Assembly: GCF_000737515.1 (NCBI RefSeq)
Contig: NZ_CP006587.1
Coordinates: 3,157,001-3,221,000 of the forward strand
DNA from: Hymenobacter sp. APR13
Lineage (GTDB): Bacteria > Bacteroidota > Bacteroidia > Cytophagales > Hymenobacteraceae
Direction of reading: 5' to 3'
DNA: 64,000 nucleotides
A program made the translations under genes and the position numbers. Below are positions 17,858 through 41,819 of this stretch, one piece after another (position 1 is the first letter of the stretch; the number at the start of each line of letters is the position of its first letter). Under the pieces are notes generated by a model that saw nothing but the letters and a program-made list of their open reading frames with translations, had not been told where the DNA came from and ran no database searches.

Positions 17858-19660
17858 ATGATTTCTCCTTCCCGATGGGCGGCTTGGGTTTGCACGGCGC
17901 TGCTGCTGGTGCTGGCTTGGTGGTATTATCCGGCCCCGCAGAGTGGCAATAAGTCGCCGGTGCTGAATTGGGATGCTTCCGGCTACTACCTATACCTGCC
18001 GGCCACCTTCATCTACCACGACCTGCGCGAGCTGAACTTTCGCGACGCCTACCTGCGCGACTACGCGCCCACGCCCGATTTCTACCAGGCTTACCGCGAC
18101 TCCGCCAGCGGCCATTTCGTGCTGAAATATCCGGCGGGCCTAGCTTTGCAGGAGCTGCCGTTTTTTCTGGCGGCCCACGCCGTGGCAGCCCCGCTCGGCT
18201 ACCTGCCCGACGGCTTTTCGGCGCCGTATCAGCTGGCCGTGAAGCTGGGCAGTCTGCTGGTGTCGGTGCTGGGGTTCTGGCTGATTCGGCGGGCGCTGCT
18301 GCCGCGGTTTGGCGAGTGGCCCACGGCGGGCGCGCTGCTGATTTTGCTGCTCGGTAGCAACTACCTCACCTACAGCGGCGCTGGCCACGCCGGCATGACG
18401 CATAGCTGGCTGCTGACCTGGTACGCCGCCTTGCTGCTGCTTACGCCCGCCTTCTACGCGCGGCCTGGCTGGGTGCGGGCCGCTGGTATCGGGGCCATTA
18501 TCGGGCTGATGACGCTCACGCGGCCTACGGCGCTGCTGGCCGTAGTGCTGCCGCTGCTCTGGGGCCTGACTTCGCTGGTGGCGCTACGGGAGCGGCTCAC
18601 GTTCTGGCGGCGGCACTGGCTTTTGCTGCTGGGGGCGGCGGTGGCCGGCGGCGCGCTGCTGAGTCTGCAGCCGCTGTACTGGCACTATGCCACCGGCCGC
18701 TGGATTGTGTACAGCTACCAGGAACAGGGCTTCAACTGGCTGAAACCGCACCTGTTCGAGGGCATCTTCAGCTTCCGGACGGGCTGGCTGCTGTATTCGC
18801 CGCTGCTGGTGGTGGCGCTGCTGGGCTTCGGGCCGCTGCGGCGGCAGCAGCCGGCGGCGTTCTGGCCGCTGCTGGTGTTCATGGTGCTGTTCACCTACGT
18901 CACGTTTGCCTGGAACGAGTGGCTGTACGGCGGCGGACTGGGTGCACGCGCCATGATTGACAGCTACGCCGTGCTGGCCTGGCCGCTGGCCGCCGCGCTG
19001 AGCTGGCTGCTGGCCCGGCCGCGCTGGGCAGTGGCTGCGGCGCCGCTGCTGCTGTTGGGCTGCGCCTACGGCTACTGGCTGACGCAGATGGCCATTCCCG
19101 GCGGCCAAGGCCTGCTGGCGGCCGGCGACATGAACCGCACCTACCTGCGCCGCATCCTGTTCCGCTACGAAGTGCCCCCAGAAACCCGCCTGCTGCTCGA
19201 CAGCAACTCCGAATTCACGGGCGAGGCCCGCAACACGCGTGTGCTCTGGCAGCAGGATTTCGAGCAGCCTGCGCCGGGCCTGTGCGGCACGCCGGCCCTG
19301 CAAGGCGCCTGCTCCCTGGCCCTCGACGCCCAGCACCCGCACAGCACCGAATGGACGGTGCCGGTCCAGCCCGGCCAGTTCACCTGGGTGCGCGCCTCCG
19401 CCCAGGCCCGCGCCGACCAGACCGAGTGGGACATGAACCGCATGACGCAATACGTGGTGCGCTTCCGCCGCGGCCAGGAGGTGGTGAAGGAGCGCACCGT
19501 GCGCCTGCAACGGGCCCTGGAAGGCGGCTGGCCCCGTGACCTGCACTTCGACATGCGCCCCCCGCAAGCCGATTTCGACAACGTCTCCATCACCTTCCTC
19601 TACTACGGCACCAGCGCCAACCTGCTCCTCGACAACGCCCGGCTGGAGGCTTTCGACTAA
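17858..19660 (+). CDS. Polytopic membrane protein, GT-C glycosyltransferase-like
   Basis: The ATG at 17858 starts directly on a membrane helix (MISPSRWAAWVCTALLLVLAWW). The longer in-frame extension upstream runs through a palindromic repeat and is not believed. The 600-residue product has about ten membrane spans in residues 5-450 and a soluble C-terminal domain of roughly 150 residues that looks beta-rich. An acidic loop after the first helix (NWDASGYYLYLPA) is where GT-C enzymes carry catalytic acid residues, so a lipid-linked-sugar transferase is plausible. There is no diagnostic signature and no partner gene. The stop codon lies inside a 30-bp inverted-repeat arm. Confidence 0.75.
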   Translation: MISPSRWAAWVCTALLLVLAWWYYPAPQSGNKSPVLNWDASGYYLYLPATFIYHDLRELNFRDAYLRDYAPTPDFYQAYRDSASGHFVLKYPAGLALQELPFFLAAHAVAAPLGYLPDGFSAPYQLAVKLGSLLVSVLGFWLIRRALLPRFGEWPTAGALLILLLGSNYLTYSGAGHAGMTHSWLLTWYAALLLLTPAFYARPGWVRAAGIGAIIGLMTLTRPTALLAVVLPLLWGLTSLVALRERLTFWRRHWLLLLGAAVAGGALLSLQPLYWHYATGRWIVYSYQEQGFNWLKPHLFEGIFSFRTGWLLYSPLLVVALLGFGPLRRQQPAAFWPLLVFMVLFTYVTFAWNEWLYGGGLGARAMIDSYAVLAWPLAAALSWLLARPRWAVAAAPLLLLGCAYGYWLTQMAIPGGQGLLAAGDMNRTYLRRILFRYEVPPETRLLLDSNSEFTGEARNTRVLWQQDFEQPAPGLCGTPALQGACSLALDAQHPHSTEWTVPVQPGQFTWVRASAQARADQTEWDMNRMTQYVVRFRRGQEVVKERTVRLQRALEGGWPRDLHFDMRPPQADFDNVSITFLYYGTSANLLLDNARLEAFD

Positions 19661-19794
19661 TCACGGATTTTTGCGGATTAAACGGATTAATCGGATTTCG
19701 TGGACGGCGTGCTGTGGTAGGGTTCTGCTACTTCTATAGGTGCTGACGACTATAAAATCCGACCAATCCGTTTAATCCGCAAAAATCCGTGATT
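19659..19794. repeat. Perfect 30-bp inverted repeat (AATCCG...CCGTGATT type)
   Basis: Arms 19659-19688 and 19765-19794 are exact reverse complements (ends AATCACGG / CCGTGATT, internal GCGGATTAAACGG). They lie between convergent genes, and each arm supplies part of the neighbouring stop codon: TAA at 19658-19660 on plus, and TAA at 19795-19793 on minus. I recognise this as a sequence type that recurs across unrelated bacterial genomes. It may end transcription from both sides. Confidence 0.85.
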
Positions 19795-21148
19795 ATATCA
19801 GCCCCCGAGCCTTGAATTCCAGGTATTTGTTGATGGTGTTCACCGTCAGGTTTTGTGGGGCCGTGAGCAGGGCGTGGATGCCGTAGCGGTTCAGCTCGCG
19901 CACAATCTGGCGCTTTTCCTGCGCGAATTTATCGGCAATGGTTTGGTTGTAGACGTCCTGCGGGGTGGCGGCGGGGGCGTCCAGAAACTCGCGCAGCTCG
20001 GTGTTTTCAAAGAACACCACCAGCAGCAGGTGGTCTTTGGCGAGGCGGCGCAGGTAAGGCAGCTGGCGCTGCATGCCGCTCAGCGTCTCGAAGTTAGTGA
20101 ACAGAATCAGCAGGCTGCGCTGTCGGACGTTGTTCCTGACGCTGATGTACAGCCGCTCGTAGTCGGTTTCAAGGTACTTGGTGCGCTGGCGGTAGAGCAC
20201 TTCCAGCAGCTTGCGCATATGGCCGCCACGCCGGTCGGCGGGCAGCACCGCGCCGGGCTGGTGCGAGAAGGTAATCAGGCCGGCCTTGTCGTGCTTGAGG
20301 ATGGCAATGTTGCTGACGACCAGGGTAGCGTTGATGGCGTAATCCAGCAAACTCAGGCCCTCAAACGGCATACGCATCACGCGGCCCTTATCAATCAGGC
20401 AGTACACCTGCTGGGCGCGCTCGTCCTGAAAGTGGTTGACCACCAGCGAGTCGGCGGTGTGGCCGGTGGTGGTGCGACGGGCGGTGGCTTTCCAGTTGAT
20501 GGAGCGCGGGTCGTCGCCGGGCACGTAGGGCCGGATCTGCTCGAACTCCATGCTGTGCCCGACCCGCCGGATGCGCTTCACGCCCACTTCCGTCAGGCGG
20601 TTGCTGATGGCCAGCAGCTCGTACTGCCGCATCTGCAGAAACGACGGATACACCGGCACCACCCGTTTCTCATCAAACTGAAAGCGCCGCCGCACCAGCC
20701 CCAATGGCGAGGCCACGTACACGTTCAAGGCCCCAAACTCGTACTCGCCGCGCTTCACCGGCCGCAGCTGATACCGGATTACCTGCGTCTCGCCCGGCCG
20801 GATAGCAGCCCGAAACAGCACGTCGCGGCGCTGAAACTGGTGCGGAATCTCGTCGATGGTTTCGGTGCTGACCGGGAAGCGGTAGTGGTTTTCGAGGTAG
20901 AGGCTGATGTCGTTGTCGGAGCCGTTGGCCAGCTTGTCGCCCAGCACGCGCCGCCCGAACAGGTGGCCGGCGCCGCCTTTGGCCGGGGCGTAAAGCAGCA
21001 GAACATCCAGCGCCAGCAGCACCAACAGCAAGCCCAGCGCCAGCTGCACCGGTGCCAGCCAGCCCGGCAGAAAAAACGCCACCACCAGCCCCAGGATAAG
21101 AGCGGCAAGTAGCAGAAAGAAGCGGCGGGTGAGAAAGAAGGATTTCAT
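19793..21148 (-). CDS. DUF58 membrane protein of the MoxR operon
   Basis: The product is 451 residues. Two N-terminal membrane helices (about 8-28 and 32-52) are followed by a beta-rich region and the DUF58 signature near residues 200-225 (EFEQIRPYVPGDDPRSINWK). The C-terminal part is von Willebrand A-like (CLIDKGRVM, LLILFTNFETLSG). DUF58 proteins are almost always next to MoxR AAA+ ATPases and are thought to be their clients or membrane partners. Here the moxR gene is upstream on the same strand, but a GIY-YIG cassette of about 490 bp separates them. The ATG at 21148 is clear, with the repeat arm of the cassette beginning five bases upstream. Confidence 0.9.
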   Translation of the reverse strand: MKSFFLTRRFFLLLAALILGLVVAFFLPGWLAPVQLALGLLLVLLALDVLLLYAPAKGGAGHLFGRRVLGDKLANGSDNDISLYLENHYRFPVSTETIDEIPHQFQRRDVLFRAAIRPGETQVIRYQLRPVKRGEYEFGALNVYVASPLGLVRRRFQFDEKRVVPVYPSFLQMRQYELLAISNRLTEVGVKRIRRVGHSMEFEQIRPYVPGDDPRSINWKATARRTTTGHTADSLVVNHFQDERAQQVYCLIDKGRVMRMPFEGLSLLDYAINATLVVSNIAILKHDKAGLITFSHQPGAVLPADRRGGHMRKLLEVLYRQRTKYLETDYERLYISVRNNVRQRSLLILFTNFETLSGMQRQLPYLRRLAKDHLLLVVFFENTELREFLDAPAATPQDVYNQTIADKFAQEKRQIVRELNRYGIHALLTAPQNLTVNTINKYLEFKARGLI

Positions 21149-21152
21149 GGAT

Positions 21153-21195
21153 TGTCATTGCGAGCGGAGCGAAGCAATCCTTCCTCTCTAAGCTC
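21153..21195. repeat. Left terminal inverted repeat of the GIY-YIG cassette
   Basis: It begins TGTCATTGCGAGCGGAGCGA and continues GAAGCAATCC, then CTTCCTCTCTAAGCTC. It is the imperfect reverse complement of 21591-21636. The CATTGCGAG...GAAGCAATCC core belongs to a repeat type seen widely in bacterial genomes (recall, not searched). It lies five bases from the DUF58 start codon. Confidence 0.8.
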
Positions 21196-21239
21196 AAAAC
21201 GCCCCTTCAAGACAAGCTCTCCGGATGAAGGTGTACTAC

Positions 21240-21530
21240 TCAAATCGTGTCAAATAAGTCCAGCCAGCCAGAATTATTCATTTCAATCAAGGCTATTTTC
21301 TTCGCCCGTGAACCGCCCTTCAATCGTTTCTCGCGCGCAATAGCGGCTTTCACATCCTGATAATGCTCGAAATAGACCAGCTTATTCAGGTTGTATTTCT
21401 GCGTGAAGCCGGGCTGCTTGCCTTCTTTGTGCTCAGAAACGCGCCGGCGTAAATCGTTGGTGACGCCGATGTAGAGCGTAGTATGATTGGCGTTGGTGAG
21501 GATGTAGACGTGATAATTATGCTCACGCAT
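21240..21530 (-). CDS. Small GIY-YIG nuclease-domain protein
   Basis: The product is 96 residues and consists only of the GIY-YIG fold. Seen: VYILTN (residues 8-13), YIG at 20-22, the Arg-rich NDLRRRVSEH (catalytic Arg expected around 28-30), the expected catalytic Glu67 in IAREKRLKGGSRAKKI, and a C-terminal SGWLDLF. It belongs to the stand-alone UPF0213/YhbQ-like group. Such genes are often multicopy in Bacteroidota (general knowledge). It is flanked on both sides by inverted copies of one palindromic repeat and interrupts the moxR-DUF58 pair in the same orientation. That suggests a mobile or formerly mobile unit in which the nuclease nicks or cleaves DNA (inference). Confidence 0.93.
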   Translation of the reverse strand: MREHNYHVYILTNANHTTLYIGVTNDLRRRVSEHKEGKQPGFTQKYNLNKLVYFEHYQDVKAAIAREKRLKGGSRAKKIALIEMNNSGWLDLFDTI

Positions 21531-21590
21531 AGCGAACAGCGGTTAACCAGTAAGCTGGCGACGGAGACCTTTGCGCTTAGGATGGCTTAG

Positions 21591-21660
21591 AGCTCAGAGA
21601 GGAAGGATTGCTTCGTCGTGCCTCCTCGCAATGACAACTAGGATACTTCTCGCAATGACA
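21591..21660. repeat. Right terminal inverted repeat plus partial third copy
   Basis: 21591-21636 mirrors the left arm: GAGCTCAGAGAGGAAGGATT, then GCTTCG and CTCGCAATGACAA, with a few mismatches and short indels. A further partial copy, CTTCTCGCAATGACA, follows at 21646-21660 and abuts the moxR stop codon. Looser similarity may extend each arm inward by about 30 bases. Confidence 0.75.
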
Positions 21661-21661
21661 G

Positions 21662-22729
21662 CTACCGCGGAACCTCAATCTGCTGCAGAATCTGCTTCAC
21701 GATGTCGTCGGGGGTGCTGCCTTCCATTTCGCGCTCGGGCGTGAGCTGGATGCGGTGGCGCAGTACTGGGGCGGCCAGATACTGCACGTCTTCGGGCGTT
21801 ACGAAGTCGCGGCCGCGGAGGGCGGCCAGTGCCTTGGCACCGTTGAGCAGGGCCAGCGAGGCGCGGGGGGATGCGCCGAGGTAGAGGCCTTTGTGGGCGC
21901 GGGTCTGGCCTACCACCCGGGCAATGTACTCCAGCAGCTTGGGCTCGACGTGCTGGCGGCGCACCTGCTCGCGCAGGCTACGCAGGTCGTCGGCGCTGAG
22001 CACGGCCTGCACCGCTTCCAGCGGCGTGCCGCCAAAACCGGCGTGGTGGCCCTGCAGAATGGCAATTTCCTCTTCCATGGTGGGGTAGCCCACATGCAGC
22101 TTGAACAGGAACCGGTCGAGCTGGGCTTCGGGCAGGCGGTAGGTGCCTTCCTGCTCGATGGGGTTTTGGGTGGCCAGCACCACGAACGGCTCCGGCACGG
22201 CGTAGCGGGTGCCGTCCTGGGTCACCTGGCGCTCCTCCATCACCTCAAACAGCGCCGACTGCGTTTTGGCCGGCGCCCGGTTAATCTCGTCAATCAGCAC
22301 GATGCTGGCGAAGATGGGACCGGGCCGGAACTCAAACTCGGCCTTGTTAGGGCGGAAAATGGAGGTGCCTAGCACGTCGGAGGGCATGAGGTCGGGCGTG
22401 AACTGCAGGCGGCTGAAGGGCACGTCGAGGGTGCGGGCCAGCAGCTTGGCGGTGAGGGTCTTGGCCACGCCAGGCACGCCTTCCAGCAGAATGTGCCCGT
22501 CGGCGAGGATGGCGGTCAGCAGCAGCTCGGCCAAGGGCTGCTGCCCTACAATCACCTTGCTGAGCTGCTGCCGGATGGCTTCGGCATGGCGGCTGAGGGC
22601 GCTCAGGTCGGTGCGGGCGGCGAAGGGGGCGGCGGTGTCCGGTGCGGCGGCAGCTTCGGCAGTCGGCTCCGGGGCGGGCTGGGCGTGGGGCTGGGGGAAT
22701 TCGTTTTCAGGCGTCAGATTATTTTCCAT
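21662..22729 (-). CDS. MoxR-family AAA+ ATPase
   Basis: From the ATG at 22729 (a TTG four codons upstream is also open) the product is 355 residues. A Pro/Ala-rich N-terminal tail of about 45 residues precedes the AAA+ core. Walker A GVPGVAKT is near residues 84-91, Walker B IVLIDEINRA near 141-150, and the sensor-1 stretch is VVLATQNPIEQEGTYRLPEAQ. MoxR ATPases act as chaperones or remodellers for partner proteins, often with vWA/DUF58 proteins. Upstream on the strand is the DUF4350 gene after a 166-bp AT-rich gap; downstream is the GIY-YIG cassette, then DUF58. Confidence 0.93.
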   Translation of the reverse strand: MENNLTPENEFPQPHAQPAPEPTAEAAAAPDTAAPFAARTDLSALSRHAEAIRQQLSKVIVGQQPLAELLLTAILADGHILLEGVPGVAKTLTAKLLARTLDVPFSRLQFTPDLMPSDVLGTSIFRPNKAEFEFRPGPIFASIVLIDEINRAPAKTQSALFEVMEERQVTQDGTRYAVPEPFVVLATQNPIEQEGTYRLPEAQLDRFLFKLHVGYPTMEEEIAILQGHHAGFGGTPLEAVQAVLSADDLRSLREQVRRQHVEPKLLEYIARVVGQTRAHKGLYLGASPRASLALLNGAKALAALRGRDFVTPEDVQYLAAPVLRHRIQLTPEREMEGSTPDDIVKQILQQIEVPR

Positions 22730-22741
22730 CTTGGCAGTCAA

Positions 22742-41728: not shown

Positions 41729-41819
41729 AGAACGTCATTCCGAACGCAGTGAGGAATCTCGCCAGTGTGGTGATTTACTATACTGGCGAGATTCCTCACT
41801 GCGTTCGGAATGACGTTCT
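41729..41819. repeat. Perfect 38-bp inverted repeat, GTCAT-n-C family
   Basis: Arms 41729-41766 and 41782-41819 are exact reverse complements with a 15-base spacer (AGAACGTCATTCCGAACGCA at the left end). It fills the gap between tamB (stop 41832) and ftsX. As RNA it would form a very stable hairpin separating the two transcripts. The perfect match of both arms suggests recent arrival or conversion. Confidence 0.9.

Follow-up and report, generated by a model that had tools for sequence, protein, structure and literature searches.

A GIY-YIG nuclease gene enclosed by the arms of a class-matched repeat family in Hymenobacter, a candidate enzyme for CGTC-tagged repeats

Results

The window, a stretch of 64,000 nucleotides from the 5.01-Mb genome (G000) of Hymenobacter sp. 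APR13, carries a cassette of 484 bp (21153-21636) that occupies the gap between moxR and DUF58 (Table 1). Both genes are intact despite the cassette between them, and the spacers that remain are short: 4 bases on the side of the DUF58 start codon (21146-21148), while on the other side the end of moxR (21662) is 25 bases away. This agrees with the preliminary description of a 96-aa GIY-YIG gene between inverted repeats, placed between two unbroken genes: the ORF matches PF01541 with an E-value of 7e-17, and aligned arms stand on both sides of it. PF01541 and PF10544 are the only Pfam matches of the protein, and no added domain beyond the nuclease is found in this search. The window protein is a small stand-alone GIY-YIG domain with its motif residues intact. 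Residues Y9, Y20, G22, R30, H34, E67 and N86 are invariant in a 14-relative alignment and are all kept in the window protein, and we take them to have the catalytic roles. Its predicted structure (model pLDDT 92) is closest to the UPF0213 protein 1zg2 among solved structures, followed by Slx1 and UvrC domains.

Table 1. Features at the moxR-DUF58 junction (window positions)
Feature	Position	Strand	Basis
DUF58 gene, downstream neighbour	19793..21148	-	ORF + PF01882
Left arm, TGC class, TGTCATTGCGAG...GAAGCAATCC, tag outward	21153..21180	+	
Left half of full gene-less element, arm included	21154..21238	+	aligned to L013 positions 0-84
GIY-YIG nuclease ORF, 96 aa	21240-21530	-	ORF list + PF01541
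Right half of gene-less element, arm included	21559..21636	-	aligned to L013 positions 90-169
Right arm, TGTCATTGCGAGGAGGCACGACGAAGCAATCC	21605..21636	-	
Isolated arm tip, CTCGCAATGACA	21649..21660	-	
moxR gene, upstream neighbour	21662..22741	-	ORF + PF07726

The inverted arms are perfect over 13 nt (21152-21164 and 21625-21637) and 76% identical over a further stretch of 54 nt (21170-21223 and 21562-21615), and TGTCAT is present at either end of the cassette. Arms of 43-46 bp had been proposed. The inverted arms stand, but not that length as their limit, as homology to the repeat element reaches 21238 and 21559. The third partial copy beside the right arm was seen correctly, with arm tips on this side at 21625-21636 and 21649-21660; the isolated tip is possibly the scar of an older element. 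The proposed arm hairpin turned out to be weak. The left arm of the window folds with a 5-bp outer stem at -2.7 kcal/mol, no better than shuffles, and none of the seven Hymenobacter arms folded, three TGC arms included, forms a hairpin stronger than shuffles. Folding thus gives no support for a strong arm hairpin in Hymenobacter. Among the eight arms folded, an 8-bp stem is found solely in the arm of L203, from a Neisseria MAG.

We name the arm classes by the three bases after TCAT (NNN), with GCT and GCA pooled as GCW. Other arms in the window are a TCC head-to-head pair, single TCC arms and one GCT arm (41733-41815, 40782, 35866 and 48444). The gap after DUF58 (window 19660-19793) holds a different palindrome (ATCACGGATTTTTGCGGATT ... 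inverse), and one resembling it stands at the L028 site in G012, the closest relative of the source genome.

Exact copies of the arm number 42 in the 5.0-Mb genome and 0 for the reversed-pattern control, so the arms are more frequent than expected by chance. Thirty of the 42 are paired head to head with tags outward, and 12 stand without an exact partner. Fourteen of the pairs are spaced 125-140 bp start to start and are gene-less, and one pair, 450 bp apart, contains the nuclease gene. The gene-less elements measure about 165 bp, and twelve of them, extracted, measure 154-177 bp. As RNA, one whole gene-less element has a very strong fold in which a long hairpin occupies the centre (z -14.4), which makes a terminator role plausible for the gene-less element in this folding model.

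Among the twelve gene-less elements aligned to the cassette, L013 is the best. The cassette matches it along both halves, which places the GIY-YIG gene in the central loop of a full repeat element. The inner part scores beyond all 100 shuffles for 3 of the 12 elements on each cassette side. In a pool of 19 elements, the best score for the 60 nt inside the left arm is 29.5 and for the right inner stretch 25.0, each against a shuffle maximum of 14.0. The interior was also analyzed in 27 TGC-clade cassettes with 40 shuffles each; 42 of their 54 sides were testable and 12 untestable. On 24 of the 42 testable sides the score against gene-less elements exceeds that of every one of the 40 shuffles. 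On the other 18 it is not above shuffles, and eight of these sides belong to the shared site of L054-L059, where the arms are close to the gene. In G012, a TGC arm pair (L268, G012:C1:616300-617300) is 302 bp apart as compared with the usual ~136 bp, and no ORF is seen in the extra sequence of its left half.

The source genome has, among the matches listed, two stand-alone GIY-YIG genes, one of the TGC clade and one of the GCW clade; the TCC-clade nuclease is absent from these two. Arms of other classes are abundant in this genome (142 TCC and 50 CCT). Several CATGCTGAG...GAAGCATCTC arms in mixed orientations are observed around the second gene (L001, ~1360-1935) and also around its G012 counterpart (L107). 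A tail, CTCGCGTGCT, is common to arms with GCT, GTC, GCA, TCA or TCC as NNN (L001, L115, L120, L136 and two G012 sites), and because it occurs with different NNN it may mark a super-class that crosses the NNN classes.

Nuclease relatives at an E-value of 0.001 or better are present in 99 of 120 genomes, and we read 91 Hymenobacter loci (30 by rank, L001, and the 60 next-ranked). Inverted repeats with a score of at least 12 span the nuclease gene in 75 of the 91, compared with 0 of 30 control moxR loci; for cross-paired flanks the count is 261 of 903. GIY-YIG genes of this genus are thus enriched for flanking arms, which agrees with the preliminary reading of nuclease and repeat as one unit. 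Of the 16 loci without a spanning inverted repeat, ten belong to one site cluster of 11 loci. Direct repeats at the same score span 40 of the 91 genes because several sites hold repeat clusters. Head-to-head arms are recovered at 55 of 91 loci by a pattern search, which misses decayed and rarer arms.

Arm class follows the nuclease tree closely. A class was assigned to 78 loci (TGC 26, GCW 27, CCT 15 and TCC 10), and for these labelled loci the four classes require 3 changes on the tree, the minimum possible. The 13 unlabelled loci lie outside this count, and some of them are armed: L115 has arms of class GTC, and L064, L120, L139, L140 and L150 are unlabelled yet have spanning inverted repeats. 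When the unlabelled loci are taken as a fifth group, 12 changes are needed versus a shuffled mean of 51.9, and 0 of 200 shuffles are as low. Within Hymenobacter most class information resides at nuclease positions 35, 15, 47, 41, 48 and 49.

The association is also seen at the level of whole genomes, in tests that ignore shared ancestry. Exact TGC arms are present in 27 of 27 genomes with a TGC nuclease among the matches listed (median 25 arms, 1 to 139) and in 48 of 93 genomes without a listed one (median 1; U-test p 3e-9). For TCC and CCT arms the TGC nuclease has no predictive value (p 0.36 and 0.52), and the TCC and CCT nucleases among the loci read predict their own arms (p 5e-4 and 1e-3). 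G095 is counted among the 93; it has a contig-edge nuclease between TGC arms with an interrupted reading frame, and its moxR gap also contains TGC arms. Arm sub-types are consistent with this association: counts of GCAATCCTTCCTCT are 39 in the source genome, 37 in G095, 21 in G084 and 15 in G012, and at most 7 in the others. Furthermore, all seven genomes that share one nuclease site contain a GCACC arm sub-type, compared with 10 of 113 others; the own arms of two of these seven cassettes (L054 and L057) are of another type.

The TGC-clade nuclease is present once per genome in each of 27 genomes among the matches listed, a count that would miss a second, much weaker copy. By common flanks the 91 loci form 38 clusters, where diverged flanks may split one site, and close relatives often have the nuclease at the same site. 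Within shared sites the median dN/dS is 0.06-0.12 (pairs with finite dS; many pairs are saturated). For the window gene versus that of G084 it is 0.077. An internal stop occurs in 6 of the 91 copies. The 11-locus cluster that contains the ten loci mentioned above, several of them armed on one side, has a median dN/dS of 0.06 with decayed arms, so the gene can be kept when its arms decay. A self-copying transposon was considered for the TGC-clade gene and rejected, since the nuclease is single-copy among the matches listed for the 27 genomes and under purifying selection.

A comparison of the moxR-DUF58 junction was made with the 30 best moxR matches of the 120 genomes, own genome included, and the printed junctions were read by eye. 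The cassette is found at 2 of 30 junctions (G000 and G084) rather than in all relatives; it is thus not an ancestral feature of the whole set, nor is it unique to the source genome. A single arm is left in G012, the closest relative. Short TGTCATTGC scars, which can be compared with the isolated tip in the window, are found in four relatives and a degenerate one in G060. G110 has a TGC element without nuclease gene, and five genomes have elements of other classes. The remaining junctions hold other palindromes, other ORFs or short spacers. In G070, G036, G030 and G088 (among L073, L077, L079, L081 and L088) the gap is taken by an ORF that we take by eye to be NADAR-like, and the ORF in the gap of G112 presumably resembles a four-helix-bundle protein, also by eye.

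The flanks of 12 elements of the source genome were further compared with G012, at a flank identity of 82-97%. G012 has an element of the same class at 2 of these sites and of another CGTC-like class at 7; of the other three sites, two hold another palindrome and one an unrelated ORF. A clean empty site with both boundaries was not found among the 12. Repeat elements thus replace one another at gene ends whose position is fixed. The turnover demonstrates dynamics, short of proof of transposition or of insertion boundaries, and recombination with relatives bearing other elements would give the same exchange.

A scan of named genomes with the window protein family gave at least 580 stretches, and the best 80 of at least 566 relatives were analyzed, three of them from Hymenobacter. 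Spanning inverted repeats with a score of at least 12 are present at 49 of these best 80 loci. Among shifted windows from these contigs they occur in 6 of 272, and among cross pairs in 143 of 787; at a score of 14 the numbers are 36 of 80 versus 1 of 272 shifted windows. Among the 49 are repeats of another type than CGTC or of low complexity (L162, L167 and L190). Judged by record titles, the 49 loci presumably come from about a dozen phyla, which we take to include Pseudomonadota, Chloroflexota, Cyanobacteriota, Planctomycetota, Bacillota, Myxococcota, Fibrobacterota and Gemmatimonadota. A homologue from a Neisseria MAG shares 54% identity with the window protein, and at L203, from a Neisseria MAG, units that fit the description of CGTC-tagged REPs stand beside the GIY-YIG gene.

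In 171 loci, the complement of the NNN follows in 284 of 390 inward half-arms (200 shuffles: mean 87.5, maximum 105) and in 117 of 204 outward ones; the GCA class is mostly without it (2 of 20). What is conserved is therefore pairing or a dyad, and the letters themselves vary. On a tree of 77 non-Hymenobacter proteins, 68 of them labelled, class requires 22 changes where 200 shuffles gave at least 28. The fit of class to tree across phyla is thus real but loose, and no clean pan-bacterial residue code for class was found across phyla among these 77 proteins.

Discussion

Enclosure of the gene by arms, congruence of class and tree, one listed copy per genome and purifying selection are direct observations, as are the class-specific genome association, with ancestry ignored, and the turnover at element sites. 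We have high confidence that the partnership of nuclease and repeat is real and recurrent. Recognition of the arms, their cutting, and cutting as the driver of spread are what we infer. The nuclease likely acts on its arms, and whether it spreads its repeats is, in our view, an even bet. The preliminary description suggested that nuclease and repeat may be one mobile unit comparable to REP/RAYT pairs. The unit is borne out by 75 of 91 loci in the genus, by the congruence of 78 labelled loci and by the loci in other phyla. An actively jumping cassette is not, given one copy per genome among the matches listed, shared sites and purifying selection.

By a slight preference we read the cassette as the enzyme-bearing member of its repeat family, whose nuclease would read and nick arms of its own class and let the elements spread. 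The GIY-YIG nuclease would recognize an arm of the form [CT]GTCAT-NNN-GA ... NNN'-AY, where NNN' complements NNN, and would nick it near the tag; its substrate would probably be DNA that is single-stranded while it is being replicated, repaired or taken up. Over long times elements with two arms would be copied, swapped or deleted, and intergenic regions would come to hold paired elements, solo arms and short scars. The gene in the central loop would remain single-copy, mostly inherited in place and kept by selection. Such a system would resemble a REPIN-RAYT pair in the way it works, with an enzyme that is unrelated to RAYT.

The related enzymes with matching repeats in many bacteria suggest that the nuclease may maintain or spread its repeat type. 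We tentatively extend this to a broader proposal, to which we give somewhat less than an even chance: GIY-YIG nucleases would be the missing enzymes of CGTC-type repeats and define a second, HUH-independent class of REP-like systems in roughly a dozen phyla, and a few residues (15, 35, 41 and 47-50 in this genus) would set which repeat class is read and propagated.

Instead of spreading the repeats, the nuclease could police them. It would cut them as markers, which could for instance limit DNA uptake or recombination at these sites, and the repeats would multiply otherwise. A Neisseria homologue, Ssn, is said to modulate natural transformation via its repeat, and purifying selection at fixed sites, even where the spanning inverted repeat is gone, and one nuclease per genome among the matches listed would suit this role. 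We nevertheless consider it rather unlikely, as it leaves unexplained why the gene lies inside the repeat with its class matched in 78 labelled loci and why copies of the matching class are more numerous when the enzyme is present. In addition, the genome has two Y1_Tnp matches, and the locus of the better one, L265, lacks an exact TGC arm tip.

A free-standing homing endonuclease might also have invaded the loop of an older repeat. It would cut the gene-free repeats and enter them as a copy during their repair, the repeat being its target and not its cargo. The position of the gene at the centre of an otherwise complete element fits this origin, and so does the distribution of the 91 genus loci over 38 flank clusters, some of which may be single sites split by diverged flanks. 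Many gene-free copies should then be filled, yet the 27 genomes have one TGC-clade nuclease each among the matches listed along with 1 to 139 exact arms, and the protein of 96 aa has no added Pfam domain, which makes homing improbable to us. That nuclease genes and repeats gather in permissive gaps with no functional link is disfavoured and seems very improbable, because class congruence, the gene at the element centre and class-specific association do not follow from such hot spots, even if the moxR-DUF58 gap of relatives hosts unrelated palindromes and other ORFs and the sequence of G012 is unrelated at 3 of the 12 element sites.

A class-matched nuclease inside its repeat is a concrete enzyme candidate for CGTC-tagged repeats, and it offers a specificity code with four natural classes in one genus. 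If the nuclease spreads the repeats, REP-like systems would have a second, unrelated chemistry; if it only polices them, this would explain why both stay together. Repeat classes that replace each other at a given gene end would also bear on the evolution of terminators and operons.

The best solved relative of the nuclease is the UPF0213 protein 1zg2 (BH0048), in the sequence profile search (E 9e-8) as well as in the fold comparison (E 1.2e-4, TM 0.59), and it is listed as a hypothetical protein. The GIY-YIG family Ssn, reportedly described from Neisseria in 2025, is said to cleave single-stranded DNA site-specifically, at a repeat. Like the window protein, it would be a small stand-alone GIY-YIG enzyme tied to a multi-copy repeat. 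In titles and abstract starts of CC-licensed PMC papers we found none that links a GIY-YIG nuclease to REP-like repeats. If the Ssn survey covers flanking repeats elsewhere, which is uncertain, the association described here would add a member to it and would not be a discovery in its own right.

CGTC-tagged REPs were described from five phyla, and that paper presents them as apparently without a dedicated transposase and equates the Neisseria dRS3 repeats with them (Di Nocera 2013, PMC3733652). As in Hymenobacter, their outer tag is CGTC or TGTC with AT as the first stem bases, head-to-head pairs predominate, and many phyla carry them (PMC3733652). They differ in having a stem of 8-9 bp and a loop of 4-5 nt, compared with the 5-bp stem of the window left arm, and in that no dedicated enzyme was found for them (PMC3733652), whereas a GIY-YIG nuclease is the candidate here. 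The REPIN-RAYT system (PMC8049555) also combines a single-copy, vertically inherited enzyme with repeats in inverted pairs, and there too the repeats are commoner with the enzyme, yet present without it. RAYT is a tyrosine transposase that goes with GTAG repeats, whereas the enzyme here is a GIY-YIG nuclease and the tag is different. The nuclease lives in the way described for domesticated RAYTs (PMC8049555), and not as a self-copying transposon would. Beside these systems, the gene-in-element layout, the gene-less partners, the congruence of class and tree, the single-copy inheritance and the exchange of classes at fixed sites may be new.
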